Of a stretch of DNA of 64,000 nt, positions 28,221 to 47,698 are shown piece by piece; within the stretch, counting starts at the first letter, position 1, and every line of letters begins with the position of its first letter. The notes beneath the pieces were generated by a model, which saw nothing but the letters and a program-made list of their open reading frames with translations, was not told where the DNA came from and searched no databases. The DNA comes from Thiocapsa marina 5811 (GTDB lineage Bacteria > Pseudomonadota > Gammaproteobacteria > Chromatiales > Chromatiaceae), in assembly GCF_000223985.1 (NCBI RefSeq), contig NZ_AFWV01000004.1:62001-126000 (forward strand). The letters are read 5' to 3'. The position numbers and the translations under genes were made by a program.

Positions 28221-28305
28221 GTGCGGTCTCCAGAATAAGCGGTGTCTGTCGTGAAGGTGGGCCGAGCCGCGTCTCGGCCGGTTCCCCCAAGCGTCGGATC
28301 TGGAC

Positions 28306-29262: not shown

Positions 29263-30458
29263 GCGTCGACCTTGAGCTCGAGTCCCTTGCCCTCCTCGGC
29301 GAGGCGTGCGAGCTTGCGTTTGCCCTCTTCGACCGCGTCGCGGATCTCCTCGGCGTTGCGGGTGCTTTGGGTGCGCATCTCCTCGATGATCTCGTGCGAT
29401 CGGGTCTGCCAGGTCACGACGGAGTCGACCAGCTTCTTGACCGCATCGGCGCGCACGGTCGGTCCGTAACCCGCCCGAACCGCCGCTTCCTGGACCTTCC
29501 CGCCGATATCGGCCAGGACCTCGAGCGACTGGCTCACGCCCTCCTTCATCGCCTCCACCGTCTGAGTGGCCTCGTGCAGCCCGAACATCCCGGTGAATGA
29601 GGCCGTGAGTGCGGTGAGGACCACCTCGTTGGTGCTGAAGAAGCTCACGGCCTGCGCATAGACGCGCTCCTTGGCGTTCGTCGTCTGGAGCAGACGCGCC
29701 ATCACCACCTCGGAGGTGTTGTACGAGATGGTCAGGTTGTCGGAGAGATCCTTGGCGATCTGATAGCGCTTCTCTTCGAGCTGCAGGGCGCGGACTTGCT
29801 CGTCGCGGGCCAGCTCGAGGCGCGCGCGCTCGGCCGGCTCGCCCGAGGTGTTCGCCTCGACCTGCTTCATCGCCGCGTCCAGCGACGCCTTCGCCGCGTC
29901 CAGCCGACCCTGCGCGGTCGCGAGAACCTCGAGCGCCAACACCTCGGACTGTTTCAGGGCACCGCGAAAGTCTTGATAGGCCTCGAGGATCTGGTGCTCG
30001 CGCCGAATCTGGTCGTCGGTGGCGGAGGTGACGTCCAGATAGGTTGTCTTGATCGTGTCGAAACGCGCGGCGATGTCGCCGCGCGTGACCTTCATCCAGA
30101 CGTTGCTCATGCGCTCGAAGGTGTCGAGCTTGCCGTCCTCGATCTGATCCACCATCGTCTTGGCATCGTCGCGGATGCTGTTGAAGGCGTTGGTGATGTC
30201 CTCGTAGCGACTGCCGATCTCCATGGCCTGGACCTGCTGGCGGACCACGTCGTTGAAGAGCGACGCTTGGCTCAGGGTGCGCGCGATGGCGGTCACGCGG
30301 CCTTCGTCGAGGGTCGAGATCTGATTCAGAAGCGCGATGATCGGATCGGCTTGCCGATCGGCTTCGGTCGGGAGCAGGCCCAGATCGTCAAGGCCGTTCA
30401 TGGCCTTGTCCAGATACTGCATGGGGGTCACGGTTGCGACGGCAGTGGTGTCGGTCAT
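29259..30458 (-). CDS. TelA-like helical protein
   Basis: From ATG 30456-30458 the product is 399 aa, almost wholly alpha-helical. It contains ISYNTSEVVMARLLQTTNAK, ERVYAQAVSFFSTNEVVLTA and FGLHEATQTVEAMKEG, resembling the TelA (toxic anion resistance) superfamily. The role is not known for this branch; TelA proteins have been linked to tellurite and antibiotic tolerance. It is the promoter-proximal gene of the three-gene operon. A ~150-bp stretch and a repeat element precede it. Confidence 0.7.
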   Translation of the reverse strand: MTDTTAVATVTPMQYLDKAMNGLDDLGLLPTEADRQADPIIALLNQISTLDEGRVTAIARTLSQASLFNDVVRQQVQAMEIGSRYEDITNAFNSIRDDAKTMVDQIEDGKLDTFERMSNVWMKVTRGDIAARFDTIKTTYLDVTSATDDQIRREHQILEAYQDFRGALKQSEVLALEVLATAQGRLDAAKASLDAAMKQVEANTSGEPAERARLELARDEQVRALQLEEKRYQIAKDLSDNLTISYNTSEVVMARLLQTTNAKERVYAQAVSFFSTNEVVLTALTASFTGMFGLHEATQTVEAMKEGVSQSLEVLADIGGKVQEAAVRAGYGPTVRADAVKKLVDSVVTWQTRSHEIIEEMRTQSTRNAEEIRDAVEEGKRKLARLAEEGKGLELKVDA

Positions 30459-30606
30459 GCTCAGGCTCTCCTCCCGGCGGACCGCCCTGGTCGGTCCGCT
30501 TATGCTTGTTGTGGACGGTCTCGGGTCGGGGTTGCCCCTGAGAGAGGCAGCCCATCGCACGCGGTCGATCCCGGATCCGGATCGGCGACCCGGGCAGTGA
30601 CCCGGC

Positions 30607-30691: not shown

Positions 30692-30714
30692 GGATACTAA
30701 AAAATCGATCATGT

Positions 30715-30798
30715 TGAAGCGCGTGTCCGGTGAGGGTTTTGGATGCACCGAACGTCGAGCTCGCTCGAAAACGAGCCTCTCGCTCTGGACGTGCTTTA
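30715..30798. repeat. Diverged terminal-inverted-repeat element
   Basis: The left end is TGAAGCGCGTCC and the right end GGACGTGCTTTA. Both ends carry the same change from the consensus (AAGC for AACC), keeping the stem paired. The interior resembles copy 49994-50077 (ACGTCGAGCTC and CGCTCTGGACG). Confidence 0.7.
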
Positions 30799-30866
30799 CG
30801 TCAATATCGCGATTGTGCGTGTCGGGCACAAGTCTTAGCCGACGGCTGACACCGCCGCGGCGGGGT

Positions 30867-30894
30867 GTTCCGCAATGGCTCGCCATTGCCGAAC
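30867..30894. promoter_or_regulatory. Hairpin upstream of the BON-LysM gene
   Basis: The arms GTTCCGCAATGGC and GCCATTGCCGAAC pair at 12 of 13 positions around a 2-base loop, 75 bp before the start codon. It could be an operator palindrome or an mRNA leader hairpin. The rest of 30459-30968 holds only the two repeat elements. Confidence 0.35.
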
Positions 30895-30968
30895 GCCGTC
30901 GCGTGTGCGAGCATTTTCGAGGCAATGCGGCACCGCGGTCTAAACCGAACACACCACCGGAGGACTCC

Positions 30969-31406
30969 ATGGGACTCTTCGATTTCGCGAAAGACATCGG
31001 CAAGAAGCTCTTCGGCAACGATGCCGAGGCAGGAGAGAAGATCAAGGCGGAGATCGAGCAGGACAATCCCGGTATCAAGGGATTGACCGTGAATTACGAC
31101 AACGGCGTGGTCTCGCTGACCGGCGAGGCCGAGAGCCCGGAGGCGATGGAGAAGGCCGTTCTCATGGCCGGCAACGTCAAGGGTGTCGCGGAGGTCAAGA
31201 TCGATCAGCTCACCGCACCGCCTCAGACCGCCGAGGTCGACTTCTATGTGATCGAGAAAGGCGACACGCTCTCGGCCATCGCCAAGAAATATTACGGCGA
31301 TGCCAACGCCTATCCCCGAATCTTCGAGGCGAACCGGGAGGTCATCAAGGACGCCAACCTCATCTACCCCGGACAGAAGATTCGGATTCCCAAGTCGGCG
31401 GGTTAG
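30969..31406 (+). CDS. BON-LysM protein (Kbp/YgaU-like)
   Basis: From ATG 30969, preceded by GGAGG, the 145-aa product has a BON domain at about 20-80 (GIKGLTVNYDNGVVSLTGEA, then VKGVAEVKID) and a LysM domain at 92-141 (YVIEKGDTLSAIAKKYYG, then NLIYPGQKIRIP). Length and order match E. coli Kbp (149 aa), a cytoplasmic K+-binding protein induced by osmotic stress. No signal peptide is seen, consistent with that location. Upstream in-frame sequence is repeat-derived and not part of the gene. Confidence 0.9.
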   Translation: MGLFDFAKDIGKKLFGNDAEAGEKIKAEIEQDNPGIKGLTVNYDNGVVSLTGEAESPEAMEKAVLMAGNVKGVAEVKIDQLTAPPQTAEVDFYVIEKGDTLSAIAKKYYGDANAYPRIFEANREVIKDANLIYPGQKIRIPKSAG

Positions 31407-31490: not shown

Positions 31491-31583
31491 GCTCCGACCC
31501 GCGACGTGGACGGAGGATATGAGCAAGGAGCGTCACTCCCCTATACGGCCACGTCGACGGGGTCGGGACCTGGCAGCCCCCCT

Positions 31584-31654
31584 GGATAGTCGACTTGCAG
31601 TCGACATCTCGCGCTGGCCTGACGGCCAGCGGGTCGACTGCAAGTCGACTATCC
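31584..31654. repeat. Long GTCGAC hairpin element
   Basis: Perfect 22-bp inverted arms (31584-31605 and 31633-31654) start with GGATAGTCGAC and each contain GTCGAC twice. The centre holds a second inverted pair, CTGGCC/GGCCAG. The left arm also occurs alone at 9428-9450. Confidence 0.85.
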
Positions 31655-31723
31655 CGGGGAACGCGCTCTTAACCGCACCCCGGAACGACACAACCGCAAT
31701 TCACAAGCCTGTTTTTATTTTCC

Positions 31724-31807
31724 TGAATCGCGTCCCCGCCGAGACCTCGCACTGCTCGGCCCTTACCCGCCACGCAAACCCTGCTGTTGACCGCAAGACG
31801 CGATTCA
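31724..31807. repeat. 84-bp terminal-inverted-repeat element (copy 7, AATC variant)
   Basis: The ends are TGAATCGCG and CGCGATTCA, changed in step so that the stem remains perfect. The right end contains the TGA stop (31805-31807, minus strand) of the SNF2 gene. Confidence 0.9.
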
Positions 31808-34800
31808 GCCGCGCACCAACGCCAGCATATCCGCGTAACTCAACCGCCCCCCGCCCTCGCTTCCTTCCAGCAACCCATCCGCTAAATCCCGCTTGGCGGC
31901 ATGCAGCGCCAGGATTCGCTCCTCGATCGTATTCTTGGCGACCAGCCGATAGACGGTGACCGGACGCTGCTGCCCGATCCGGTGGGCGCGGTCGGAGGCC
32001 TGATCCTCGACGGCCGGGTTCCACCAAGGATCCATGTGGATCACATAGTCGGCGGCAGTGAGATTCAGACCGACGCCGCCGGCGCGCAGGCTGATCAGGA
32101 AAAGGTCGCCTTCTCCGGCCTGGAAGGCGGCGACGGCGGCACGCCGCTGCGGCTCGGGGGTGGAGCCGTCGAGATACTGGTAGCGGATGCCGCGGGCGTC
32201 GAGATGGGCACGGATCAGTGCGAGATGGTCGACGAACTGGCTGAAGACGAGCGCCTTGTGGCGGTTCTCCAAGAGCTCGTCGAGGATCTCGTTGAAGGCA
32301 TCCAGCTTGGCGCTCGACAGATCGCTGTCCGGAAGCGCCAGACGCGGATGGCAGCAGGCGCGGCGTAGACGCATGATCTCGGCGAGGAGCTGGATGCGTT
32401 GCTGGCCGGGGTTGGCCGCTGCCTCCGGGTCGGACAGGCGTTCGACGGCCTGCCGGCGCATCGCCTCGTAGAGGGCCAGCTCGCCGTCGCTCAGCTCCAG
32501 CCTCAAGGTGATCTCGGTGCGCGGCGGCAGTTCGCTGAGAACCTCGCTCTTGAGCCGACGCAGGATGAAGGGGCGCAGCAGTTGGCGCAGACGCTGCCGC
32601 GCGCCCGCGTCCTTGTTCTGCTCGATCGGGGTGGCGAAGCGTCGGTTGAAAGTCTCCAGCGAGCCGAGCAGACCCGGATTGATGAAGCGGAAGAGGTTCC
32701 ACAGCTCGCCGAGATGGTTCTCGACGGGCGTGCCCGTGGTGATCATCCGAAAGCCGCCCTTGAGCCGCATGATGGCCTGCGAGCGCTTGGTCAGGGCATT
32801 CTTGAAGGACTGGGCCTCGTCCGCGACGATGGTCTCCCAGGACACCGCGGCCAGGCGCTCCCCTTCGGTCTGCAGCAGACCGTAGCTGCAGATGATCAGA
32901 TCGAAGGGGCCGGCGGCGTCGAGCATCGCGGCGCGATCGCCGGGGCCGAAGCGAAGCGGCTGCAGGGTCGGCGCGAAACGCTGCGCCTCGTCGACCCAGT
33001 TGCCGCAGACCGAGGTGGGCGCCAACACCAGGGTCGGACCCTTGGGTGCGCGCGACAGGATCAGGGTCAATGCCTGGAGGGTCTTGCCGAGACCCATGTC
33101 GTCGGCGAGACAGGCGCCGGCGCTCCAGTGCGCGAGCCGGGCGAGCCACCGGTAACCCTCGATCTGGTAGTCGCGCAACTCGGCCTGGAGCGTGGACGGG
33201 ATCTCCGGCTCCAGATCCTCGACGGCGGCGAGGCGATCGAGCAGGGACTGCCATGCCTTGTCGGCATCGAGCGTCATCCCGTCGATTGCCTCGGCGATAG
33301 CCGGTGCGGCGAGCGGGTGGAAGCGGCCGGTGTCGGTTAGACCGCGCAGGCCCTCGAGCTTGCGCCGCAACGCCTGACTGAGGACGAGAAAGTTGCGCTC
33401 GCCGAGCGGGATAAAACGTCCCTTTGCGGCAGCCGCCAGATCCAGTAGCTCCTGCATGAGGAGGATCCGACCGCTGTCGAGCCGGATCTGGCCCTGCAGG
33501 TCGAGCCAGTCGCCCTCCTGCTCGATCTTGATGCGCAGAGACGCCATCTGCATCTCGGGCGTCAGTCCGATGCGCTTGCCCTCGGGCCAATCCAGAACGA
33601 CCGCCTCGCCGAGCGCGTGGAGCTGCTCGAGCGTCGTCAACGCCGTTTCCAGGTCGTCGAGCGACCAGGTCCAAGCCTCGTTGTCGCGGAGCGCTGGACA
33701 GGCGTCGAGCACCTCGCGGGCCGCCGTTCGCTCACCCTCGAGGTCGCGGGTACAGCGTACGGCGCGCCCCTCGATCTCGGTGAGCAAGGTCGCCCGTCCC
33801 TGCCCCGGCAGGAGCTGAAGAGCGCTGTCGCCGAACGGGTGCATGCGCAGCTCCAGGCTCAGACCGGTCGCGAAGGGAATGAGATGCAGGTGGGGCCGGG
33901 CGTCGGCGGGCATGGTCTCCGCGGCGCTCTCGTCCCCGGCGATATCCGAATGGACGGTGACCATCGGGGCCACGGCAGCCAGCCCTTCGAGCAGCCGCGC
34001 CTCCGCGCCTTCGGGAACCTTGAGGCCCTCGGGTCCCAAGATGCGGGCGATCTCGCGATGGGCAGGCTCGAACCGGACCAGACGGACGCGTTTCGACGTC
34101 TCGTCGACCGGCAAGAGCGAACGGCCTTCCGGCGGGAAGGGCTCGATGGTCACCAGGATGTCCCGATTGCGCCGAACCACCGAGAGCGCGGGGTCGCCGA
34201 GCACCAGCTCCAGCGGGAGCTCGGTGACGCCGTTGCCGCCCTGCCGGCGCACCGTCAGCAGCGGGTGACCGACCGCGGCGAGCAGAGCGCGGTCCGCATC
34301 GAAGCGATAGCTCAGGCGGTCGGAGCCGCCATACCAGGACGACCCTTGCTCGCGGACGATACAGGCGCAGATCTCGCGGTCCTGCGGGGTCAGATAGCCG
34401 AAACTCTCCGGCTCTTCGACGAGCTTCTGCAGCGCCACGGCACGCCCGCTCGTCCAACCGCCCCGCTTCATGCGTTTCTGCTCGCGCGGCTCCAGCATGC
34501 CGTGCGTCTTGATGAAACCAAGCTGCCAGGCCATGCGCCGGTCGGTGCCCGCGGAGGTGTCCACCCCGGGTGCGGCATGGGCGCCGAGTCCCTTGAGCGC
34601 ATCGAGCGCGATCTCCCAGGTCGCCTTGCGCGCGAGCAGATCGGTCATCGACACCAAACCGGCGGGCCGCTTGCCGAGCTCAGGTCGCTCGCCTTCGAAA
34701 CCGAAGGCATCCAGGAGTGCGGCTGCCTCGTGGGCGTACCAGAGAAACCCGGCCTGATTCGCCTTCGCAGTCCAGCCGGCCAGGACGTCGAGCGCCTCGG

Positions 34801-35956
34801 GCGCCGGCCGCTCGCCGAGCCAATGCAGCATCAGGGACTGGAACAGGAGCACGAAGGCGCCGCGCAAACCGAGGCGTTGTTCCAGCCAGGCGCACTCGTC
34901 CACCCGTCGCTGTCCGGCCAAGACGGCCGTCAACTCGCCGAGCAGCCGATACACGGGTTCGACAGGGTCTGTCACATCGGCGCGCAGCGCGATCGCGACC
35001 TGCTGCTGAACAAATTCGAAGTCCTCCCGCTCGCCACGCCGCAGCCGCGTCAGCAAGGCCAGAACACCCGGAATTCCGGGCAGATAGACCTTGCGCTTGC
35101 GGGTCGTTTTGCGGATGGTCTCCCGTGCTGCATCGAAGACGTCGAGTGACTGCTCGTAGTGGCCGAAGAGGAACTGCAGCCAACCGCGCTGAACCAAGGC
35201 CGCTGGATCGCTGCGTCCGTCCAGCAAGGACGGAACCTCGGCAAGCCGGCCGCGCTGTAGTCTCTGCTCGATCAGTGCGTCGGCGACCTCGGGATGAGTT
35301 CCGACGAGCGGGACGAAGAGCTCTTCCATGAGGGCATAGGCGCCGGTGCGCTCGATCATGTCGCGTGCGGCCAGGCGCAACGGGGGAACGAGACCGGCGA
35401 TCTTGAGCCGCGGGTCGAGCGTTTCCAACCAGGCGCGGTCCGTCGAGGACGTCAAGACCTGCGTCAGCGGCATGACATGGGCCGCGGACAAATTGCTCAA
35501 CGACACCTGATCGCTCAAGGCGAACATCCGCAGCGCCTCCTCCTGACGCCCGGCGTACAGGGCAATACGGACCATCCGCAAACGCCGCTCGGGGCTCGGC
35601 ACGAGCCAGGTGGATGCGTTCGTGGGGACGACCGGAATGACCCGCTCGGCCGCCGCGACGATCGACTCGAAGGTCCCGTCGGCGAGCGTCTCGCGCGTCA
35701 GGGGCTCGAGCAGATCACGACGACACGCGAGTGTGCTGCGTTCCGTCTCGATCTGGCCCGCTGCGGCTAAACGTCGGTACAGCGCCTCATCGACGCGCCG
35801 ACTCAAGGGCTCTCCCGCCCGATCGCGCCAATCCAAGGCGTCCAGAATCTGGTGCAGCCGATCTCGGGCAATCGGCTCGCAGACGACCGAGAGCACACGC
35901 AGGATCCGTTGGTCCTCGATACCCAGCGCGGCGAAGGCGGTAGGTGCATCAGCCAT
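31805..35956 (-). CDS. SNF2/RapA-type DEAD/DEAH-like ATPase, 1383 aa
   Basis: A C-terminal Swi2/Snf2 engine has Walker A DMGLGKT (about residue 955), DEAQSFKN (about 1045), TGTPVENHLGELW, LVFSQFVDHL and DRAHRIGQQRPVTVYR (about 1325). The first ~550 residues are helical, repeat-like (TPR-type AGRQEEALRMFAL), and ~550-900 hold a SNF2-associated domain. Such ATPases move along DNA and remodel bound protein or polymerase. The ATG at 35954-35956 lies 8 bp inside the end of the XPB-N-like gene; an in-frame ATG at 35992 is less likely. A single-peptide nuclease or methylase is absent. The stop lies in a repeat. Confidence 0.88.
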   Translation of the reverse strand: MADAPTAFAALGIEDQRILRVLSVVCEPIARDRLHQILDALDWRDRAGEPLSRRVDEALYRRLAAAGQIETERSTLACRRDLLEPLTRETLADGTFESIVAAAERVIPVVPTNASTWLVPSPERRLRMVRIALYAGRQEEALRMFALSDQVSLSNLSAAHVMPLTQVLTSSTDRAWLETLDPRLKIAGLVPPLRLAARDMIERTGAYALMEELFVPLVGTHPEVADALIEQRLQRGRLAEVPSLLDGRSDPAALVQRGWLQFLFGHYEQSLDVFDAARETIRKTTRKRKVYLPGIPGVLALLTRLRRGEREDFEFVQQQVAIALRADVTDPVEPVYRLLGELTAVLAGQRRVDECAWLEQRLGLRGAFVLLFQSLMLHWLGERPAPEALDVLAGWTAKANQAGFLWYAHEAAALLDAFGFEGERPELGKRPAGLVSMTDLLARKATWEIALDALKGLGAHAAPGVDTSAGTDRRMAWQLGFIKTHGMLEPREQKRMKRGGWTSGRAVALQKLVEEPESFGYLTPQDREICACIVREQGSSWYGGSDRLSYRFDADRALLAAVGHPLLTVRRQGGNGVTELPLELVLGDPALSVVRRNRDILVTIEPFPPEGRSLLPVDETSKRVRLVRFEPAHREIARILGPEGLKVPEGAEARLLEGLAAVAPMVTVHSDIAGDESAAETMPADARPHLHLIPFATGLSLELRMHPFGDSALQLLPGQGRATLLTEIEGRAVRCTRDLEGERTAAREVLDACPALRDNEAWTWSLDDLETALTTLEQLHALGEAVVLDWPEGKRIGLTPEMQMASLRIKIEQEGDWLDLQGQIRLDSGRILLMQELLDLAAAAKGRFIPLGERNFLVLSQALRRKLEGLRGLTDTGRFHPLAAPAIAEAIDGMTLDADKAWQSLLDRLAAVEDLEPEIPSTLQAELRDYQIEGYRWLARLAHWSAGACLADDMGLGKTLQALTLILSRAPKGPTLVLAPTSVCGNWVDEAQRFAPTLQPLRFGPGDRAAMLDAAGPFDLIICSYGLLQTEGERLAAVSWETIVADEAQSFKNALTKRSQAIMRLKGGFRMITTGTPVENHLGELWNLFRFINPGLLGSLETFNRRFATPIEQNKDAGARQRLRQLLRPFILRRLKSEVLSELPPRTEITLRLELSDGELALYEAMRRQAVERLSDPEAAANPGQQRIQLLAEIMRLRRACCHPRLALPDSDLSSAKLDAFNEILDELLENRHKALVFSQFVDHLALIRAHLDARGIRYQYLDGSTPEPQRRAAVAAFQAGEGDLFLISLRAGGVGLNLTAADYVIHMDPWWNPAVEDQASDRAHRIGQQRPVTVYRLVAKNTIEERILALHAAKRDLADGLLEGSEGGGRLSYADMLALVRG

Positions 35957-37781
35957 TGCCGGTCTCCGGGAGCACGAAACCCAGCTTGGCAAGTCCCTTT
36001 CGGAAGGCGGCGAGCTTGGGCTCGGGGACGCATACCAAGCGCTCGCCCGCGCGGGTGCAGTGCGGCGCCGTGACGGGATCCGAGGTCAGCATGACGGCGA
36101 TGGCGGGATCACGGCATTTGACGAGCCGAGCCGCTCCTGCATCGACGAGTGCGCTCGCGCGCTCCTCGACGTCGCGCAGCAGTTGGACGACCTCGGCCGG
36201 CAGGCCTTCGTCCGTCGACGACTCGATGAACGTTCGGATGCGTCCTCGCTCGCCGGTGTCGGCGCTGTGCCGCAGCACGGCATCGGGATCCAGATGCCAA
36301 AGCCTTGGCGAGAGCGGCTTGGCAATCTGCTCCAACACCAGCCGCTCGGCCGGCTCGGGCTCGCGCTCGAGGGTCACGAGCAGATCGGCCCCGATCGAGC
36401 ACAGCGGCGGTCGTTTCGGGAGCACGGGCTCGTAGGTTTCGGCGAGTCCCAAGCAGTAGAGACCGAGCGCGTTGAGCCGGATGTACCTTAGCCCGTCGTA
36501 ACGGCTCAGAAAGGCAAACTCGTCGACCCCCCAGGCGTCGTCGTAGTCAGACCTCGCGCCGTAGGGCGAGGTGTAGGCGACATCGATCATGCCCAGTGTG
36601 GCGAGATACTCGAAGAGATAGGCAAGGATGTAGCGACCCTGGAGGATCTCGAATCCGTCGGCGCCGTTCATGCCCAAGCTGCCGTAGTTTTGTTCGACGA
36701 AATAGAGGCCCCAGGCGTTCTCGGTCACCGCGAAACGGCGGCCGCGGAACTGCATCTGTCGGAAGAGCTCGTCGATGGCCACCCAGCGACCCGGCGGACA
36801 GCAGTCCCGCAGCGCATCGGCGATGACCGCTCGGCGCTCCGACACCGCGCTGAGCCGCACCCCTTTTGCCGTCTGCCCCTTGATCAGGTCGACGCGCCGC
36901 AGCTCATCGGGTGTGCCTTTGTATTGCCAGCGCGCGAAAAGGTGCGAGACCACCTCCTCGACCGGCTGAGACAGTGCCTTGTTGCCGCGCGCAGTCAGGA
37001 CGAGCTTGCTGCCGTCGGCCTTCGCGAGCCCGCCGGCCTGCAGCAGGAGTGGCCAGGCAAAGGGGCGAATGGGCCGGATCGGACCGCCGGCCGAGCGTGG
37101 CTCGTCCAGGTCGTCGTCCGCGCTGTACCAGTCACCGCCGAGCAGGACGCTCTCCACTTTGGTCATTGAGGCGCTGCTCGGTAGACCCGTCTTGGCGCCG
37201 ACGCTGATGCGGCCCTGACCGATCAGGCGCAGCACGCCGGGCAGGTCGTGATGGATCAGGGTCTCGGTTGCGAGACGCCGCAGCGACTCGGATGCCTCCT
37301 CTTCGGGCTCCAGGATGATCGCCGAGGCCATGCGCGTCGGCAGGTCCTCGTCGGCGAAGCTTACGGTCTCGAGCGGCGTCGGCACCGCGACGATCGACGC
37401 CAGTCGTTTGCACAGATCCTCGGGGATCGAGCCGTCGTAGAAGAAGAGCGTCAGCAGCGAACGCCGCTCTTGGCGGTCACGGTCGGGCCGCGAATAGGAA
37501 TAGGCCACCGGCGGGACGAGGTTCGGAAGCGAGCCGTAGCGTGCCTTGAAGCCGGCACGGTCAAAAAAACCGCCCCAACGATGGACGCTCTCGGCAACGG
37601 CGTTTTGCTCGAGCTCGGAGAGTCTCCCCCAGTACTGGCTTAGATCCGCCGATAAGAGCTCATGGGAGATCGCCTCGACCATCTCCGCTTTCCGAGTCGA
37701 GCGGTTCCCGCTCAACAACAGGTTGCGGCGCTGTTTGAGTTGCTCGGCAGTCAGGGACCAGAGGGCCTGTTGTAGTGTCAT
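35949..37781 (-). CDS. XPB/Ssl2 N-terminal-like helicase-associated protein
   Basis: The 610-aa protein starts MTLQQALWSLTAEQLKQRRN, a SAP/rho-N-like helical head, followed by winged-helix-type segments. The C-terminal part, about 440-600 (LVTLEREPEPAERLVLEQIA, then RLWHLDPDAVLRHSADTGER and FIESSTDEGLPAEVVQLL), follows the Helicase_C_3/XPB N-terminal pattern. It has no Walker motifs, so it likely assists the SNF2 ATPase whose gene overlaps its stop by 8 bp. The start overlaps the zinc-ribbon gene by 122 bp. The domain call is from motif pattern only. Confidence 0.68.
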   Translation of the reverse strand: MTLQQALWSLTAEQLKQRRNLLLSGNRSTRKAEMVEAISHELLSADLSQYWGRLSELEQNAVAESVHRWGGFFDRAGFKARYGSLPNLVPPVAYSYSRPDRDRQERRSLLTLFFYDGSIPEDLCKRLASIVAVPTPLETVSFADEDLPTRMASAIILEPEEEASESLRRLATETLIHHDLPGVLRLIGQGRISVGAKTGLPSSASMTKVESVLLGGDWYSADDDLDEPRSAGGPIRPIRPFAWPLLLQAGGLAKADGSKLVLTARGNKALSQPVEEVVSHLFARWQYKGTPDELRRVDLIKGQTAKGVRLSAVSERRAVIADALRDCCPPGRWVAIDELFRQMQFRGRRFAVTENAWGLYFVEQNYGSLGMNGADGFEILQGRYILAYLFEYLATLGMIDVAYTSPYGARSDYDDAWGVDEFAFLSRYDGLRYIRLNALGLYCLGLAETYEPVLPKRPPLCSIGADLLVTLEREPEPAERLVLEQIAKPLSPRLWHLDPDAVLRHSADTGERGRIRTFIESSTDEGLPAEVVQLLRDVEERASALVDAGAARLVKCRDPAIAVMLTSDPVTAPHCTRAGERLVCVPEPKLAAFRKGLAKLGFVLPETGNG

Positions 37782-38037
37782 GGGCGGACTCGGCAGAGGG
37801 TGTCGAACGTGCGAAGTCGAGGAGGGCGGAGACGAAAGTGCCCCCCGACAAGGCCCGCGCCTGCTTCAGATCGCGGATGGCGCCGGTCCTGTCGTCCTCG
37901 GCGAGACGACGAATCGCGCGTGTGAGGGCGGCATCGCCGGCACGATCCACCGCGTACAGCAGATGGAGATCCAGGCCGCAGCGGCGACACTGCTCGGCGC
38001 CGTCGAGACGGGCGCGACAATTGGGGCAACGGTCCAT
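37660..38037 (-). CDS. Small zinc-ribbon protein overlapping the next gene
   Basis: From ATG 38035-38037 the 125-aa product begins MDRCPNCRARLDGAEQCRRCG, a two-knuckle zinc ribbon (CxxC...CxxC), followed by a helical stretch DAALTRAIRRLAEDDRTGAI that looks like one TPR-type hairpin. The last ~40 residues overlap the start of the XPB-N-like gene in another frame, an unusually long 122-bp overlap. The overlapped part is low in conserved-looking residues, so the functional part is probably the first 85 residues. Confidence 0.6.
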   Translation of the reverse strand: MDRCPNCRARLDGAEQCRRCGLDLHLLYAVDRAGDAALTRAIRRLAEDDRTGAIRDLKQARALSGGTFVSALLDFARSTPSAESAHDTTTGPLVPDCRATQTAPQPVVEREPLDSESGDGRGDLP

Positions 38038-38088
38038 AACCTTAACCTGGCAGAGCCGGAACCAAGAGATGTGGTCGAAGGCTTTACT

Positions 38089-38149
38089 CGTTGTCGTTAT
38101 CGTTGTCGTAATCGGATTCCGGACGAACACGACAACGACAACGACAACG
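38089..38149. repeat. CGACAA hexamer array with inverted arm (copy 1)
   Basis: TTGTCG/TTATCG units at 38091-38114 face three CGACAA units at 38130-38147, so the region can fold into a hairpin. It lies between Hsp70 and the zinc-ribbon gene, next to a truncated terminal-repeat element. Confidence 0.8.
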
Positions 38150-38169
38150 CACGTTTCTACGACGGTTTG

Positions 38170-38221
38170 TTCAAGATTTGCGGCATAAGGGACGAACGCC
38201 CAACGCGCCGCGCGCGGTTTA
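38170..38221. repeat. Right half of a terminal-inverted-repeat element
   Basis: It ends in GCGCGGTTTA and includes GCGGCATAAGG. The left part is missing; the CGACAA array lies where it would be. It contains the TAA stop (38219-38221, minus strand) of the Hsp70 gene. Confidence 0.5.
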
Positions 38222-39988
38222 GGATTCCAGATAGAAGATCAGATCGGAGAGCCCGTCCATCGCCTCGTGGATGGCGACATCATCGTGCGCCGCGACCGCG
38301 TCGCGCAGGGTCTCGATCAGGTTTACCAGGTCTTCGCGGTCCTCCGCATTGGCGGCCTCCATCAGACGCTCGGCCTTTTCGATCAGCGCCGTGGCCTGGA
38401 CGCCGTCGCGCCGCTCGGCGCTTGCTCCGACGCTCTCCCCGACGTTGTCTCGGTCCTCGTTCGGCTCGGTGCTGAAGTCGCCGTCGATGAGCGCGCCGAT
38501 GCGCGCGCGTGCGGCGGCCATGGTGTCCTGCTCGAAGCGGGCGGTGGCGTTGTCGATGACGATGCGCTGCTCGAGTCCGGTGCTCTTCTCGCGCGAGGTC
38601 ACCTTGAGGATGCCGTTCACATCCAGGGAGAAGGTGGTGACGATGACATTGCCGGCCGGCGCGTCGCTCAGCCCCTCGATGCGGAAGGCGCCGATCTCGG
38701 TGTTGTTGAGTGCGTCCGGGTCCTCGCCTTGGTAGACGCGCACGTCGATCGCGGGTTGGCCGTCCTCGATGGTGGAGAAGGCCTCGCTCTTGGTGACCGG
38801 GATCGGGGTATTCTTACGGATCAAGGGGACATACACGAAGGGGTAATAGTCGCCGTTGAGCTCGCCGAGCGCGCTGGTCCCGAAGGTGTAGGGCGTGACG
38901 TCCACCAACACGCGCGAGACGCGCTGCCCCCCGATCACGGCCGCCTGGATGGCCGCGCCGCTCGCCACGCACAGATCCGGGTCGACCTCGCTGCGCGGTT
39001 GCATCCGCAGCAGCTCTTCGAGACGCTGTTGGATCAAGGGGGTGCGGGTCGCGCCGCCGACCAACAGCACCTCGCTGAGGTCGTCGATGCCCAGACCGGC
39101 CCCTTCGAGCGCGGTGTGCACCGCGTCCATGGTCTCGTCGATATAGGGCGCGATCATCGCCTCGTAGTCGTCGCGCGAGAGCTCGAGCGAGAGATTGACC
39201 GGTTTGCCCTGATGCTCGAGGAGATATTCCTCGTCGATACGGACGTAGGGGGCGTCGCTCAGCGCGATCTTGGCTGTTTCCGCCGCGCGGGTCAGGCGCG
39301 CCATGGCGACGCGATTCGCACTCGGGTCCGTGCCCTGCTCCTTCAGATGCGCGACCAGGTGATCCAGGATCCTGCCGTCGAAGTCATCTCCGCCGAGCTG
39401 GTTGTTGCCGTGGCTCGACAGGACCTCGGTCACCTCCTTGGCCAGACGCACGACCGAGACGTCGAAGGTGCCGCCGCCCAGGTCGTAGACCAGGATGGTC
39501 TTGGGCTCATGATGATCGACCTCGTAGGCCAGTGCCGCGGCCGTGGGCTCGTTGATGATGCGCACCACCTCGAGCCCGGCCAGCTGACCGGCATCGCGGG
39601 TTGCCTGGCGCTGCGCATCGGAGAAATAGGCCGGAACCGTGATGACCGCCTTGCTCACGGGCTGGCCCAGATCGGACTCCGCCGCGCGCTTGAGCCGGCC
39701 GAGGATGAGCGCCGAGATCTCCTGCGGGCTGTAGCGTTGCGCGCCCATCTCGATGACCGTGTCTTCGCCCATACGCCGTTTGACCGAGCGGATGGTGCGC
39801 TCCGGGGCCAGGATGTATTGGTTGCGTGCGCTCTGACCGACCAGGAGGGCGCCGTCGTCCGCGATCCCGACCACGGAGGGCAGGATGGGGTTGCCGTCGA
39901 CCGGGATGAGTCGGACGCGCCCCTCCTCGACCACCGCGACCTCGGAGTTGGTGGTGCCGAGATCGATGCCGATGATGATGTCGCTCAC
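38219..39988 (-). CDS. Hsp70-family chaperone (DnaK-like, specialised)
   Basis: The 589-aa protein has the actin-type ATPase: [12 protein letters not shown] (9-20), [25 protein letters not shown] and [15 protein letters not shown] substrate-binding domain follows ([33 protein letters not shown]) and a short helical lid. It is about 50 residues shorter than housekeeping DnaK and differs in SBD signature ([11 protein letters not shown] rather than DVTPLSLGIET). It overlaps the GrpE-like gene by 4 bp (ATGA). The partners here suggest a dedicated chaperone, not the general one. Confidence 0.9.
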
Positions 39989-40662
39989 TGGGTATGGTCC
40001 TCGAATTTGTTGACGATGACGTCGGCGAGCCGCAAGAGCGACTCGCCGTGGCGGTAACCGGTGCGCAGCTCCGCGAGCACCGTGCCGATCGGCAGGGCGG
40101 GATCACGCCCGACCTCGAGTGCACGCATGATCCGCGGATCGAAGGGCCGCCCGACGGTCTCGATCGGACGCACCTCGCGCCGATCCAGGGTCTCGTCGAG
40201 CCGGCGCAGGTTCATGCTCAAGCCTTGGGTCATGCCGGCGATGAACTCGGCAGCGCCGCTGGCGTGGGCAAGCCAGTTCGGCCGATAGGCGGCGGCCTGA
40301 CCGCGGCCGTCCCGCAGCCGGTCGCGCAGCTCGATGAGCTCGAGCAGGATGTCGCGCTCGGCGTTCAGGGCGATGTCGCGGGCATCCTGCTGACGTCGGC
40401 CGAGCTCGGCGGACAGGTGCTCGTTCGCCTGCCGGAGGCTGTCGAAGAGGTCGCGAAACAGCTCGAGCGCGCTCTTCACCTGACGCGACTCGAGCTTGAC
40501 CTCGTTCTTGAGCGCGGCCAGCTCGGCAAGCAGGGTGAAGAGATCCGGCGCGTCGGTCTCGTCCGTGTCCTCGATGCCCGAATCCGAGCCCTCGCGAGAG
40601 CCCGGCTCGTCCTCCAGATAGGCCCGGAACCGCTCGAGCAACGCCGCCTTTGCGTCCTCCAT
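39985..40662 (-). CDS. GrpE-like nucleotide exchange factor
   Basis: The 225-aa protein has an acidic N-terminus (SREGSDSGIEDTDETDAPD), a long helix (LAALKNEVKLESRQVKSALE to RLRDGR) and a C-terminal beta part with RRLDETLDRREVRPIETVGR, then PFDPRIMRALEVGRDPALPI, GTVLAELRTGYRHGESLLR. The last block closely follows GrpE's beta-wing (FDP--H-A------G-V---L--GY-----LLRPA-V-V). It lies directly between the J-like and Hsp70 genes with 3-bp and overlapping junctions. Confidence 0.82.
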   Translation of the reverse strand: MEDAKAALLERFRAYLEDEPGSREGSDSGIEDTDETDAPDLFTLLAELAALKNEVKLESRQVKSALELFRDLFDSLRQANEHLSAELGRRQQDARDIALNAERDILLELIELRDRLRDGRGQAAAYRPNWLAHASGAAEFIAGMTQGLSMNLRRLDETLDRREVRPIETVGRPFDPRIMRALEVGRDPALPIGTVLAELRTGYRHGESLLRLADVIVNKFEDHTQ

Positions 40663-40665
40663 GCG

Positions 40666-40959
40666 TCAGACCTCGCCGCGCAGCAACGCGGTCAGCGTGG
40701 CCCGCTTCGGGCGTCGCGGATCGCTCAAGGGCGCGGCCTTCGCCAGGATGTCGGCGGCGGTCGGCGGTGTCTGATCGAAGAGCGCATACGCAAGCCGATC
40801 GCGACGCGTGCGGATCTTCTCGTAGGCCCCGCGCAGCGCCTCGAAACCGGCCGGATCGCGCTCGGGAGAGGCGCGGCGCAGACCGGCGAGATAGGCCGCT
40901 TCGATGGCGGCGTCGTCCGCATCGAGCGGGACGCCGAGGATGAGAAAGGGGTCGGTCAT
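40666..40959 (-). CDS. J-domain-like small protein lacking the HPD motif
   Basis: The 97-aa protein begins MTDPFLILGVPLDADDAAIE, matching the first helix of a J-domain (--DPY-ILGV---AS--EI). It then has AYLAGLRRASPERDPAGFEA and LRGAYEKIRTRRDRLAYALF, matching helices II-IV. At the loop where the HPD tripeptide should be, the sequence is SPERD. The protein could bind but not stimulate Hsp70 in the usual way. It is separated by 3 bp from the GrpE-like gene. Confidence 0.75.
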   Translation of the reverse strand: MTDPFLILGVPLDADDAAIEAAYLAGLRRASPERDPAGFEALRGAYEKIRTRRDRLAYALFDQTPPTAADILAKAAPLSDPRRPKRATLTALLRGEV

Positions 40960-40981
40960 GAGATCAGGGTCCGATGGTTGT

Positions 40982-41065
40982 TGAACCGCGTCCGGCGGAT
41001 CATGCGTTGCTGTCGTTTGGGTTCGATCTCGTGCGGGCCCGCGGGGTCGACGGGGACGCGGTTCA
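40982..41065. repeat. 84-bp terminal-inverted-repeat element (copy 9, TGAACC variant)
   Basis: The ends are TGAACCGCG and CGCGGTTCA, changed in step. It separates the TPR-like gene from the J-like/GrpE/Hsp70 part of the locus. Confidence 0.9.
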
Positions 41066-41109
41066 GAGAGTCGAGGTTCGGATGTCCCGGGGTCGCCGCG
41101 CCGGGCCGC

Positions 41110-43731
41110 TCAGCGGCGCTTTCGTTTGGCGCGAGCGCGTTTGCGTGTGCTCGGAGACGGCCCGGGGTTGAAATCGCCCGGATCCGCGAAGGGCAAATCT
41201 CTGGCATCGAGGTCGGCCGCCAAGGCATTGATCAGGACATCCAATGCCTCCTTGCCGATCTCGCGCTCCATCGCGCGCATCGATTCGCCGATCGGCCCCG
41301 GCATCTGCATCATGGAGCGAAAGCCGCTCGGCCCGAGGGTGCGAATCATGTCGGCCAAGAGCGCGATCGACCTCCCGGCCATGCCGCCGTCGTCGAACGC
41401 ATCGTCGATGTCCTCGTCCTCGTCCTCGTCATCCCACTCATCTTCGATGAATCCGCCCCCGAAGCCACCGCGCGGCGGTCCACCGAAGGGCAGCGAGGGT
41501 CCGCTCAGGATCTCGATGATCCGATGCACGAGACGGGAGTCACCGTTGTCGCGGGCGCGCTCGAGCGCCTGCTCCAAACGCAGCATTTCGCGCATCGGGA
41601 TGTTCCAGGGCACGACACCGTGGTGACGTGCCTCGAACGCATGGAGCTCGAAGACGGGCTCGCCGCGCCAGCGCTTCAAGGCGGCCTCCGCGAAGGCCAA
41701 CCGCACGTCGTGCAGATCGGTGCGGCGCAGGGTTTCGCAGATCGACTCCATCTCGCCCTGATCGAGCTTGAGCCGGGCGGTCTGCTTGAGCGGCGCCTTC
41801 AACGTGCCCCCGACCTCGCTCGGGAGCTTGGCACCCGTATCCAGATGCGCCCGAACGCGCGAGAAGAAGGCACGCAGGTCCACCACGTCGGGCGTGGGTG
41901 CCTTGGTGAGTCCGAGCTGTTTCAGCAGCCGGGCGCCGGGAATACCGCAGGCGTCGGCCTCCAGCAGGAGAATGAGGCGTGCGGCCAGCCCTTTGCCGAG
42001 ACTCTCGGCCACGGCCTGCAATCGCGCCTCGCCCTGCGGATCGAACGCGAGCAGCTCGGCCAGACCGCGCACTAGATCCAATCGTTCGCGCGTGCGCTCG
42101 GTGCGGCTCCAGTCCTCGGCCAGGGCGAGTGCACGCATCGCCAAGTCGGGCCGTTGATCTTTGAGGTTTTTGCGCGCATGGGCGAGATGCGCCTCCACCA
42201 GCCGCTCGCGCACCCCGCTGTTGATCGGATCCACCGCCAGGATGTCGGCGGCGATGGTCGCGGCCTTCTTGAAGGCCCCGCCCGCAATGGCGGTATCCAT
42301 GGCGGCGGTCAGAACGGCCTTGTCTGTCGGCCAGCGCTCTTGGGCGCGCTTGAGGATCCGGCGGGCGTCCTTGAGCGCCTTGCCGCCGCGCAGGTAGTAG
42401 GCGATCAGGCCGAGATAGGTGGCGCGGTCGTCGGGGTCGTACTCGAGGCTGGATTCCAGCTCCGCTGCAATGGTTCCCGGCAAGGACTCCGGGTCGGAAT
42501 CCGGCTCCATCCGCTGGAGGACCTGAAAGAGGGTCTCGGCGCGACGACGAACGAGCGCGATCCGCAACGCGGTCTCGCTGCCCGGCTCGACGCGATGCTC
42601 CGCGGCAGCCAACAGGAGGTCCGCGTAATCCTGCCAGTAGGTGACGACCTTCCAAGGATCGGGATCCGCCTCGCTTTCCCAGGCATCCAGCAGGTAGCCG
42701 TCGATCTTGCGCAGAGGCTTGCCGCCGACCTCGATCCACCATTTCGCGCCGGTCTGCGGCTTCGGCAAGAGCAGACGCAGCCCACGCTCGTGCACCCAGG
42801 TCTCGCCGAGTACCCGACGATGCCGAAACATCAGACGCAGAAGCTCTTTCGGTTGCGGTGAGTCGCCGAGCGTCTGAAGCTCGTTCCAGAGGACCGCGCG
42901 CTCGGCCGGCCAGCCGCGCAGAGAGAAGACCAGATCGCGTGTCGCCGGGCCGGCCTCGCGGAGCTTGGGCGCCAGCTCGATCTCCGAGAGCAGCGCCAGG
43001 CGTGCAGCATCGCGTAATCGGGCGAAGCCCGAGTCGTCGTCGATGCGGTCCAGGAGCTTGGCCGCCTCGCTACGCGCCTCCTCGGTCCAGTCCCCGCGAT
43101 GATCGCGCGCGGCAGGATCGAGACGGCTCAATGCCTTGAGGATCTGAACCAGATCGCGATAGGGCGAGCGGAACGGGATCGCCTTCAGCGCCTGCGCGAG
43201 TGCCTGATCGTTGCCGACGCAATAGGCGTCGAGGGCCTCCTCGGCGACGGTCGCTTGGACCCGTATGGGGTCCTCGGCGGGCAGGGCCTCGGCAATCCCG
43301 GCCGTGCCGGCGAGCATCTGGGCCGCCAGATGGCCGAGCAGCAGCGCTCCGGATCCCGGGTCGGCCTTCAACGAGCGATCCTCCAGCATCGGCATGACCT
43401 GCGCGACACGGCCCAGACGGAGCAGGCAGACGGCATGGTCGGGATGCGCCGGGAGGGCCCCGAGGGCAGCGCGGTTTTCCCACATCACCAACGCCTCCTT
43501 GTGCATGCCTTTGGCGCCGAGCTGCCGGGCGCGTCCCGCGTAGGCATGTGCAAGTCCGTCGCGGAGCGATTCCCGGTCTTCACCCGCCGGGGCGCTTTTC
43601 AGCAACGCCTTGAAGCCTGCCGTCGCCTCGCGAAAACGCCCCGCATCGAGATCGGCGCGCGCCGACTCGGGCGTGACCGAGCACGCCTGCTGCAGGGCCT
43701 TGACCGACGGTCGCTTCTGCTTCTTTGCCAT
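41110..43731 (-). CDS. Large TPR-like helical protein, 873 aa
   Basis: The protein is helical throughout, with TPR-like pairs (RADLDAGRFREATAGFKALL; YYLRGGKALKDARRILKRAQ; AGGAFKKAATIAADILAVDP). There is a low-complexity acidic stretch (DEWDDEDEDEDIDDAFDDGG) at about 770-790 preceded by a Gly/Pro-rich loop, and a basic C-terminus (RKRARAKRKRR). There is no signal peptide. It is the promoter-proximal gene of the chaperone/SNF2 locus and faces the LOV gene across 220 bp. It could present clients to the Hsp70; no enzymatic motif is seen. Confidence 0.7.
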   Translation of the reverse strand: MAKKQKRPSVKALQQACSVTPESARADLDAGRFREATAGFKALLKSAPAGEDRESLRDGLAHAYAGRARQLGAKGMHKEALVMWENRAALGALPAHPDHAVCLLRLGRVAQVMPMLEDRSLKADPGSGALLLGHLAAQMLAGTAGIAEALPAEDPIRVQATVAEEALDAYCVGNDQALAQALKAIPFRSPYRDLVQILKALSRLDPAARDHRGDWTEEARSEAAKLLDRIDDDSGFARLRDAARLALLSEIELAPKLREAGPATRDLVFSLRGWPAERAVLWNELQTLGDSPQPKELLRLMFRHRRVLGETWVHERGLRLLLPKPQTGAKWWIEVGGKPLRKIDGYLLDAWESEADPDPWKVVTYWQDYADLLLAAAEHRVEPGSETALRIALVRRRAETLFQVLQRMEPDSDPESLPGTIAAELESSLEYDPDDRATYLGLIAYYLRGGKALKDARRILKRAQERWPTDKAVLTAAMDTAIAGGAFKKAATIAADILAVDPINSGVRERLVEAHLAHARKNLKDQRPDLAMRALALAEDWSRTERTRERLDLVRGLAELLAFDPQGEARLQAVAESLGKGLAARLILLLEADACGIPGARLLKQLGLTKAPTPDVVDLRAFFSRVRAHLDTGAKLPSEVGGTLKAPLKQTARLKLDQGEMESICETLRRTDLHDVRLAFAEAALKRWRGEPVFELHAFEARHHGVVPWNIPMREMLRLEQALERARDNGDSRLVHRIIEILSGPSLPFGGPPRGGFGGGFIEDEWDDEDEDEDIDDAFDDGGMAGRSIALLADMIRTLGPSGFRSMMQMPGPIGESMRAMEREIGKEALDVLINALAADLDARDLPFADPGDFNPGPSPSTRKRARAKRKRR

Positions 43732-43951: not shown

Positions 43952-44413
43952 ATGGATTTCGTCGCCGACAAAGATGCGGATCTGATTCCTTTCGTGTTGT
44001 CTCAGATCCTCGATACCTCGATCAACGGCATTACACTCTCGGATCCGGATCAGGAGGACAACCCGATCGTTTACGCCAACGAGGCGTTCGAGCTGATCAC
44101 GGGCTACAGCCGCGAAGAAATCGTCGGGCACAACTGCCGCATCCTCCAGGGTCAAGACCGCGATCAGGAGGGGTTGGAGAAGGTTCGCGAGGCGATTCGC
44201 GAGCGCAAGCGGACCACGGTCACGCTGCGCAACTATCGTAAAGACGGGACGCTGTTCTACAACCGATTTTCCATTCGGCCGCTGTACGATCGGCAAGGCA
44301 AGCTGATCTATTTCCTCGGGGTCCAGTACGACGTAACCGAGCAGGTCTACGCCAGGGAAGAATTGGAGCGGCTCAAGGAGATGTTGCGCGTCGCCGACCG
44401 GGAGACCGGCTAG
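43952..44413 (+). CDS. Short LOV blue-light photoreceptor domain protein
   Basis: The 153-aa protein is one LOV-type PAS domain (about 12-132) with a short C-terminal helix. The photoactive motif GHNCRILQG has Cys62, and the flavin contacts Asn94, Asn104 and Gln125 (LRNYRKDG, FYNRFSIRPL, FLGVQYDVT) are all at canonical positions. So FMN binding and a cysteinyl adduct are expected. There is no effector domain; the ~20-residue tail (REELERLKEMLRVADRE) is a Jalpha/coiled-coil dimer helix. It is divergent from the TPR-like gene and precedes CheBR-PAS and GGDEF-EAL genes. Confidence 0.92.
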   Translation: MDFVADKDADLIPFVLSQILDTSINGITLSDPDQEDNPIVYANEAFELITGYSREEIVGHNCRILQGQDRDQEGLEKVREAIRERKRTTVTLRNYRKDGTLFYNRFSIRPLYDRQGKLIYFLGVQYDVTEQVYAREELERLKEMLRVADRETG

Positions 44414-44574
44414 TGCATCACGGGGGCCGGCTTGGCCGGTTTCTCGAGACCCTCTGTCATGGTGATGCCTTCCGCAGCCGGGCCTCGACCGGCGACGGCG
44501 AGCGTCCATGCGAACCACGCCTTGCCGTTCGAGAACGGGCAGGGAACATCGTCCGGATGCCTGATGAAGATCAC
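44410..44574 (-). CDS. Possible small protein, tail-to-tail with the LOV gene
   Basis: A GTG-started 54-codon frame reads VIFIRHPDDVPCPFSNGKAW, then FAWTLAVAGRGPAAEGITMT, EGLEKPAKPAPVMH, with GC-rich third positions typical of real genes here. Its stop overlaps the LOV stop on the other strand. There is no clear ribosome-binding site and no recognised family, so chance is possible. The rest of 44414-44742 shows nothing else. Confidence 0.3.
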   Translation of the reverse strand: MIFIRHPDDVPCPFSNGKAWFAWTLAVAGRGPAAEGITMTEGLEKPAKPAPVMH

Positions 44575-44742
44575 GGCACGAGCGGCAAGGCACGACTAAA
44601 CTCCATGGCCGTCGCGACTTGGCCTCGGCCGCTGTAGGGTCGCCTTGGAACCCCGTCGGGCCGATCTCGGCCGTCAAGCCGGTCCGGTACAGGAACGGGC
44701 GTCAGTGACCCGGCAGCGCAGGAGCCACAGGAACAATCCATC

Positions 44743-47694: not shown

Positions 47695-47698
47695 CGGC

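Follow-up and report, generated by a model that had tools for sequence, protein, structure and literature searches.

The DNA analyzed here, a stretch of 64,000 nucleotides from Thiocapsa marina 5811 (contig NZ_AFWV01000004.1, positions 62,001 to 126,000; called the window throughout), carries a locus of seven genes at positions 31805-43731. They encode a TPR-like scaffold, a J-domain-like protein, a GrpE-like protein, an Hsp70, a zinc-ribbon protein, an XPB-N-like protein and a SNF2 family ATPase. Our analysis indicates that the locus is very probably two separate units, unit A (37660-43731), which holds the first five genes, and unit B (31805-37781), which holds the last two. With our confidence evenly divided, we propose that the five proteins of unit A work as an Hsp70 remodelling machine of their own, docked on the DNA sliding clamp in many species, and that unit B is an independent neighbour of it in this genus only. 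Once the two units are told apart, reading the seven genes as one system is seen to be tempting but wrong.

The listing of open reading frames (ORFs) in the window contains all seven minus-strand ORFs that a first-pass annotation had reported at this locus, and Pfam confirmed the identities of GrpE, Hsp70 and SNF2. The features, with the evidence for each in brackets, are:

41110-43731, minus strand: unit A gene 1, TPR-like alpha-solenoid scaffold, 873 aa (ORF; TPR_19, E 1.1e-4; alignment of 19)
40666-40959, minus strand: unit A gene 2, J-domain-like protein, 97 aa, with SPE replacing HPD (alignment of 23; profile)
39985-40662, minus strand: unit A gene 3, GrpE-like nucleotide exchange factor, 225 aa (GrpE, E 1.1e-18; profile)
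38219-39988, minus strand: unit A gene 4, Hsp70, a DnaK-like paralogue, 589 aa, GTG start (HSP70, E 4.4e-146)
37660-38037, minus strand: unit A gene 5, zinc-ribbon protein with two CxxC, conserved start at 38037 (alignment of 23)
35949-37781, minus strand: unit B gene 1, Helicase_C_3-like, XPB-N-like protein, 610 aa (orthologues; alignment of 17; predicted fold)
31805-35956, minus strand: unit B gene 2, SNF2 family ATPase (SNF2-rel_dom, E 6.5e-63; Helicase_C, E 1.1e-24)
38088-38149, no strand: short CGTTGT/ACGACA repeat tracts between the Hsp70 and zinc-ribbon genes (repeat reading)
31781-37760, no strand: stretch without a DNA match in another Thiocapsa genome, G102, almost exactly unit B (flank alignment)

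Pfam cut-offs were passed by GrpE (67.9 versus 25.8 bits), Hsp70 (488 versus 20.6) and SNF2 (213 versus 24.9). The TPR score fell slightly under its cut-off (22.9 versus 25), and three others were well under theirs: DnaJ (16.3 versus 27.8), the best zinc ribbon (14.7 versus 25) and Helicase_C_3 in the XPB-N-like protein (17.1 versus 34.2). Solved GrpE structures were recovered with a profile of 24 GrpE-like sequences (E 4.1e-14) and solved J-domains with one of 23 J-like sequences (E 7.9e-9 and weaker), and cysteines 35, 38, 48 and 51 of the zinc ribbon, numbered on the longer ORF, were invariant in 23 sequences. Some details of the gene calls had to be revised. The zinc-ribbon ORF had been listed as 37660-38130; in the alignment its conserved start is the ATG at 38037. 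The GrpE/Hsp70 overlap, previously given as ATGA, is GTGA (4 bp). The 3 bp between the J and GrpE genes and the 122-bp overlap of the zinc-ribbon and XPB-N-like genes stand as described, as do the 8 bp at the XPB-N-like/SNF2 junction if SNF2 begins at ATG 35956; a TTG at 35992 is also open, and the ORF had been listed as 31805-35992. Elsewhere the 5.6 Mb genome encodes a canonical set, a DnaK with a GrpE match and an HPD-bearing DnaJ, and the unit A Hsp70 is 44.9% identical to this canonical DnaK. A promoter and terminator scan returned no sigma-70-like promoters and nine terminator-like sites (6.2 expected), and is uninformative on co-transcription.

Conservation and spread of unit A

The GrpE-like alignment was used to scan a collection of 84,980 species genomes; the best 80 of the 141 confirmed loci are referred to as the named loci. 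All five genes were present in 65 of these 80, and in every one of the 65 complete loci they ran in the same order (TPR, J, GrpE, Hsp70, zinc ribbon) on one strand, over a span of 3.6 to 6.6 kb. The best 80 come from Chromatiaceae, Ectothiorhodospiraceae, Halomonas, Beggiatoa-type giants, betaproteobacteria (among the carriers Polaromonas and Massilia) and one record titled Deltaproteobacteria, and within them the closest named relatives of the GrpE-like protein are from Thiocapsa (96% and 93% identical). Seven of the 15 incomplete loci are cut by contig ends (L126, L134, L142, L156, L159, L173 and L179). The genes mostly abut or overlap, with the 4-bp GrpE/Hsp70 overlap in 12 of the 26 loci measured.

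Two further samples gave similar arrangements. The GrpE-like protein found matches in 44 of 116 genomes of the family, of which 29, counting the window's own, reached at least E 8.2e-43; 15 weaker matches, at E about 1e-8 to 1e-5, were taken as canonical GrpE. In the stretches read from the 28 non-own genomes the TPR, J, GrpE, Hsp70 and zinc-ribbon genes recur jointly, several of these stretches ending at contig ends. When the TPR gene was instead used as the anchor on 369 genomes of the class, 11 carried it, own included; seven of the ten others show the full order and one is cut (L204). This last sample partly overlaps the best 80, with at least two apparent repeats (L204 with L179, L210 with L193).

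These data show that unit A is widespread but patchy in gamma- and betaproteobacteria, with one further record titled Deltaproteobacteria. We consider it very likely that its five genes make up one functional machine, and the full dedicated Hsp70 cycle proposed in the first-pass annotation is supported for these five. A minority of loci weigh against such a tight association. Eight of the 15 incomplete named loci are not explained by contig ends: Hsp70 and the zinc ribbon are missing from L133 and L165, TPR and J are missing from L185, and in L153, L161, L172, L186 and L187 the GrpE-like gene is the only one of the five (L187 being truncated upstream as well). Similarly, in the family-level set there is no Hsp70 or zinc ribbon in L043 and L044 and no TPR or J in L061, and among the TPR-anchored loci L217 lacks GrpE and L216 consists of the TPR gene alone. 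The five GrpE-only loci belong to Beggiatoa-type genomes, and the absence of their TPR, J, Hsp70 and zinc-ribbon genes applies within the stretches read. Among the matches listed from the open-access papers searched there was no description of the five-gene module, and its novelty is therefore not certain.

Separation of the XPB-N-like/SNF2 pair from unit A

The first-pass annotation had suggested that the seven genes may be one system, with the Hsp70 cycle and the SNF2 ATPase and its partner jointly stripping or refolding DNA-bound proteins, and had itself named homologues of the two halves lying in unrelated places in most genomes as the observation that would tell against it. Unit B lies beside unit A in one of the 28 family-level stretches (L036) and in one of the 80 named loci, both from the window's genus. 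The XPB-N-like gene occurs in 34 of 210 genomes of the order, and the SNF2 gene adjoins it in all 20 of the loci read among these 34. Both units are present in 30 of the 34 genomes, 24 of them outside Thiocapsa. In these 24 the units stand apart: they are more than 1.5 Mb from each other on one contig in four (G028, G076, G105 and G107) and on different contigs in 20, where short contigs could conceal adjacency across a contig break.

Within Thiocapsa, nine genomes have the TPR gene. Six of these have the pair, and in all six it adjoins unit A directly after the zinc ribbon, with overlapping genes; in G153 the adjacency is to the zinc ribbon alone, the TPR gene being on another contig. Two (G102 and G071) have a deletion with a remnant of the pair, and G155, which gave no match, is uninformative, since a contig end truncates its TPR gene. 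The deletion edge falls after the zinc ribbon or inside its 3' part. In G071 the unmatched stretch is 31781-37927, includes a run of unread bases, and is followed by a resumed DNA match at 37928. In both genomes 31 residues still match the beginning of the XPB-N-like protein (identity 52 and 55%; E 1.3e-7 and 2.2e-8, the query having 60 residues and the search space being very small). Because this remnant is kept, we conclude that the pair was once present in G102 and G071 and was then lost; the converse, a gain of the pair within Thiocapsa, is rejected on the same evidence. G102 retains all five unit A genes. In G151 the pair genes are partial (coverage 0.56 and 0.66), the TPR, J, GrpE and Hsp70 genes show no truncation and the zinc ribbon, counted from the conserved start, is also intact, and in G154 the XPB-N-like gene lies in two frames. 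Judging by G102, G151 and the many genomes outside the genus, the pair seems dispensable to unit A.

On this distribution, deletion and decay of the pair we reject a seven-gene system, the dispersed homologues being what the first-pass annotation had said would tell against one, and we regard a single machine as very improbable. The six Thiocapsa genomes in which the pair directly follows the zinc ribbon speak for it, as does the strong co-occurrence described below; against it stand the 24 genomes with dispersed units, the loss of the pair in two Thiocapsa genomes and its fragmentation (G151) or broken frame (G154) in others, with unit A whole in G102 and G151, and the lack of an XPB-N-like gene in 23 of 53 TPR-bearing genomes. 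Moreover, XPB-N-like homologues were found on 13 plasmid records, and the TPR gene was found on no plasmid or phage record at E 1e-5. The first-pass annotation had also raised the possibility of two operons, divided at a CGACAA array; comparison with relatives places the boundary of the units after the zinc ribbon. The array does exist as two short repeat tracts (38088-38114 and 38129-38149), and was rejected as a unit border since the zinc ribbon goes with Hsp70 in 65 of the 80 named loci and the deletion edge described above lies beyond the array.

Two results count against complete independence of the units. Unit A of G071 is itself incomplete (fragments, broken frames, unread bases, J not found), perhaps because of assembly quality. 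The units also co-occur: the 210 genomes divide into 30 with both, 23 with TPR only, 4 with XPB-N only and 153 with neither (p 8.5e-18), and the 61 genera into 9, 9, 2 and 41 (p 1.1e-4), overlaps being counted by hand and genome size and relatedness uncontrolled. This co-occurrence may come from genome size, relatedness or a shared pathway. That the units act in one pathway without forming one complex would explain why they co-occur when far apart, and the XPB-N-like gene is indeed found in 9 of 18 TPR-bearing genera versus 2 of 43 others; however, 32 of the 34 XPB-N-bearing genomes are at least 4.0 Mb, so genome size could yield the association. We consider a shared pathway improbable, and retain the reading of two separate units.

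The J protein and its contact with Hsp70

The HPD motif is regarded as essential to J-domain action. The unit A J-like proteins depart from it uniformly: the HPD histidine is found in none of 73 sequences (72 loci and the window), and the three columns read PPE in 47, PPD in 17, SPE in 6 and PAE in 3. We then compared 71 Hsp70 sequences (70 loci and the window), using E. coli numbering set by the RIINEP motif. In all 71, four residues (209-212) are gone from the J-docking hairpin of subdomain IIa in the nucleotide-binding domain (NBD), and the E206 position is changed in 70 (E in one). NBD lobe I is shortened by 24 residues (19 versus 43 in the genome's own DnaK), again in 71 of 71. In contrast to these losses, R167 (70/71), N170 (71/71) and the linker Asp (70/71, with one gap) are kept. 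According to PMC7289447, J helix II rests chiefly on the sheet of subdomain IIa, with HPD directed at R167. The alignments show that both partners in the J/Hsp70 contact have changed in sequence, a pattern that fits a private J/Hsp70 pair. The hairpin and lobe I deletions may not be unique to this unit and may also occur in HscA or HscC.

Alternatively, the HPD-less J protein could be a regulatory, non-catalytic subunit, with an ordinary HPD-bearing DnaJ driving the unit A Hsp70. Pam16 is regulatory and non-catalytic relative to Pam18. The retention of R167, N170 and the linker Asp would suit this arrangement, and the genome has an HPD-bearing DnaJ beside its canonical DnaK. However, the hairpin under a canonical J helix II lacks four residues in all 71 Hsp70s and E206 is lost in 70; with both changes, ordinary J-domains should dock poorly. 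A regulatory role of this kind is credible and, in our view, the less probable course. A J family in which no member examined has the HPD histidine, together with a matching change in its Hsp70, is a natural experiment in the triggering of Hsp70s.

A clamp-like motif ending the TPR scaffold in many relatives

The model of the TPR protein is an alpha-solenoid (mean predicted local distance difference test score, pLDDT, 83.7), with a tail, residues 844-873 (the last 30), that scores below 50 and is predicted to be disordered. Among the matches listed in a fold search there were generic TPR scaffolds only and no specific structural relative. The consensus for binding of the bacterial clamp is given as Q-L-x-L-F, usually C-terminal, in the portion of PMC4549789 available. 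A match to Qxx[LM]F lies within the last seven residues of 36 of the 70 TPR relatives with a readable C-terminus, in forms that include QLDLF (as in Thiorhodococcus), QFDLF (as in Halochromatium) and QRNLF; the strict QLxLF is found in 13. None of 515 control ORFs ended in this way (the controls are long non-overlapping ORFs from the same loci, some perhaps not genes), 1000 shuffles of the tails gave at most two matches, and elsewhere in these TPR proteins the pattern occurs 5 times in 58,440 residues. By group, as assigned by hand from record titles, the motif is present in 24 of 49 Chromatiaceae and other gammaproteobacteria, 2 of 4 Halomonas, none of 4 Beggiatoa-type genomes (26 of 53 gammaproteobacteria without the Beggiatoa type), 6 of 9 betaproteobacteria, 1 of 1 deltaproteobacteria and 3 of 3 unclassified Pseudomonadota. 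This spread over gamma, beta and delta records is a better argument than the shuffle and Fisher statistics.

A clamp-like motif, as judged from sequence, thus ends about half of the scaffolds, and we lean narrowly towards a real sliding-clamp tether in the species that bear it. The other half of the family weighs against a tether as a general property. No motif is found in 34 of the 70 tails, among them all four of Beggiatoa type, and the TPR proteins of the window and of five other Thiocapsa are without it, all ending in the basic sequence KRKRR. Strongly basic tails make up 7 of the 34 that are motif-free, versus 16 of the 515 control ORFs. In addition, the Qxx[LM]F pattern was chosen after the tails had been seen (a slightly different first pattern gave 35 of 72), and the sequences are related, so that the shuffles and the Fisher value overstate independence. 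Scaffolds that bear the motif are like known beta-clamp binders in this C-terminal QLxLF-type sequence, which half of the family lacks; no TPR co-chaperone is among the binders named in the available text of PMC4549789.

In a competing explanation unit A is a folding or assembly chaperone whose client has no link to DNA, QxxLF binds some other partner and the likeness to a clamp motif is incidental. SSB, for example, has an acidic/aromatic tail that is read by its partners. The motif-free half of the TPR family, the window included, would be expected on this explanation; no flanking gene recurs consistently, and TPR solenoids are generic scaffolds. On the other side, the motif agrees with the published clamp consensus, its first Q included, stands only at the extreme end of the protein, and appears in gamma, beta and delta records with no instance among the 515 control ORFs. 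We judge a DNA-independent client to be a serious possibility, short of probable.

Proposed mode of action of unit A

Returning to a remodelling machine that is clamp-docked in many species, we suggest that the TPR scaffold would recruit its three partners J, Hsp70 and GrpE to a client protein. The QLxLF-type tail of many species would dock on the DNA sliding clamp, and the docked Hsp70 cycle could unfold or strip proteins at replication or repair sites; in Thiocapsa the basic tail may lead to DNA or another partner in place of the clamp. The J protein is expected to position Hsp70, and not to act as the usual trigger of ATP hydrolysis, because the catalytic histidine is absent. That unit A acts on DNA-bound complexes we propose tentatively, placing it somewhat below an even chance. 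The same activity had been suggested in the first-pass annotation, and the clamp-like TPR C-terminus supports it indirectly, in other species only. A more specific proposal, and a rather doubtful one at present, is that unit A is a clamp-tethered Hsp70 machine outside the DnaK, HscA and HscC types, whose rebuilt J/Hsp70 contact is a second way of triggering an Hsp70. Hsp70 action at the replication fork is familiar chiefly from phage and plasmid replication. A clamp tether, if true, would mean a bacterial chaperone machine stationed at the fork.

Comparison with known Hsp70 systems

Unit A is like DnaK/DnaJ/GrpE in having an Hsp70 with R167, N170 and the linker Asp, a GrpE-type exchange factor and a J-fold partner. 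It differs in the absent HPD histidine, in the hairpin and lobe I deletions of Hsp70, and in a gene set that adds a TPR scaffold and a zinc ribbon; the Hsp70 also stays under the NCBIfam cut-offs for DnaK (539.9 of 648 for PRK00290 and 525.8 of 822.55 for TIGR02350). A closer parallel is E. coli HscC with DjlB/DjlC, likewise an Hsp70 paralogue near its own J genes and with a deletion in NBD lobe I, a comparison made by description only from the part of PMC8215388 available. HscC is described there as having no GrpE signature, whereas in the window and in all 65 complete loci the GrpE-like gene lies directly upstream of Hsp70. DjlB and DjlC are tail-anchored membrane proteins (PMC8215388, in part). 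In Myxococcus an additional DnaK, MxDnaK2, is encoded downstream of its own GrpE in one operon (MXAN_6671/6672), an arrangement like that in unit A (PMC11019930, in part). Unlike the unit A Hsp70, MxDnaK2 is 62% identical to E. coli DnaK and has no adjoining predicted J gene, and a TPR protein and a zinc ribbon go unmentioned in the available text of that paper.

The XPB-N-like/SNF2 pair

The 610-residue XPB-N-like protein was modelled with a pLDDT of 82.1. In a Foldseek search with this model TFIIH chains were best, including the p52/p8 crystal structure 6trs (best E 5.7e-7, probability 1.00); for the TFIIH chains other than this entry the subunit identity is presumed. The best row had TM-scores of 0.29/0.37, and the nine rows with E no higher than 0.001 had query TM-scores of 0.18-0.29; a sequence-profile search of the PDB with this protein gave no match. 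By its predicted fold the protein resembles a p52- or XPB-N-like partner of the SNF2 ATPase. Unit B is like TFIIH p52/XPB in having TFIIH chains as its best fold matches and in the pairing with a superfamily 2 type ATPase, and unlike it in the low TM-scores, the lack of a sequence match and a partner that is SNF2 and not XPB. As a side observation, the XPB-N-like/SNF2 pair is a possible candidate for a bacterial counterpart of the p52/XPB pair; a search of open-access papers for a bacterial pairing of a p52-like protein with SNF2 found none described.

Three of the 13 plasmid records with XPB-N-like homologues were opened, and in their gene tables, which are incomplete, no SNF2 is annotated beside the homologue. 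On a Cupriavidus taiwanensis plasmid (L225, 7731-17075) the homologue lies directly upstream of Wadjet-type genes and also beside a YoeB-type toxin-antitoxin pair.

Search for links to phage defence and mobile elements

A role against phage had also been raised for the locus. In PADLOC, the TPR, J, zinc-ribbon and XPB-N-like proteins gave no hit at E 0.1, and GrpE and Hsp70 reached just E 0.016-0.025; the matches of the six non-SNF2 proteins are no more than chance level. The SNF2 protein strongly matches several PADLOC SNF2 families (DpdE at E 9.4e-189) and shares its SNF2 ATPase core with the SNF2 proteins of Dpd, DISARM and Zorya. Unlike these, it misses the corresponding NCBIfam cut-offs widely (DpdE 36.3 of 500, DrmD 92.1 of 950, ZorD 237 of 1500), and we rejected its identity as DpdE. 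Around unit A the commonest flanking family occurs in 21 of the 80 loci, on both strands and at scattered distances, and none is consistent; around unit B no family is common to more than 3 of the 14 loci examined. With no PADLOC component set and no conserved flanks for either unit, a defence island was rejected; nothing in these searches, nor the lack of a plasmid or phage record for the TPR gene, points to phage defence. When the six proteins other than SNF2 were scanned against PHROGs, GrpE and Hsp70 alone matched, to families of unknown function and, weakly, to a partition protein.

Neighbouring features

Between a LysM gene and the SNF2 stop lies an inverted repeat (31579-31659) with 27-nt arms that are 96% complementary and a 27-nt spacer; this stretch is conserved in two Thiocapsa genomes without the XPB-N/SNF2 pair. 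Further along, on the minus strand at 26733-30560, is a three-gene set (a 433-aa protein, a DUF6384 protein and a 566-aa protein with a Gly/Arg-rich end). It adjoins a BON and LysM gene (30711-31406), and is kept beside the chaperone unit in the Thiocapsa relatives read. On the other side, beside the TPR gene, the plus strand at 43952-49996 carries a PAS protein followed by long ORFs that by eye are CheB/CheR hybrid-like and GGDEF/EAL-like.

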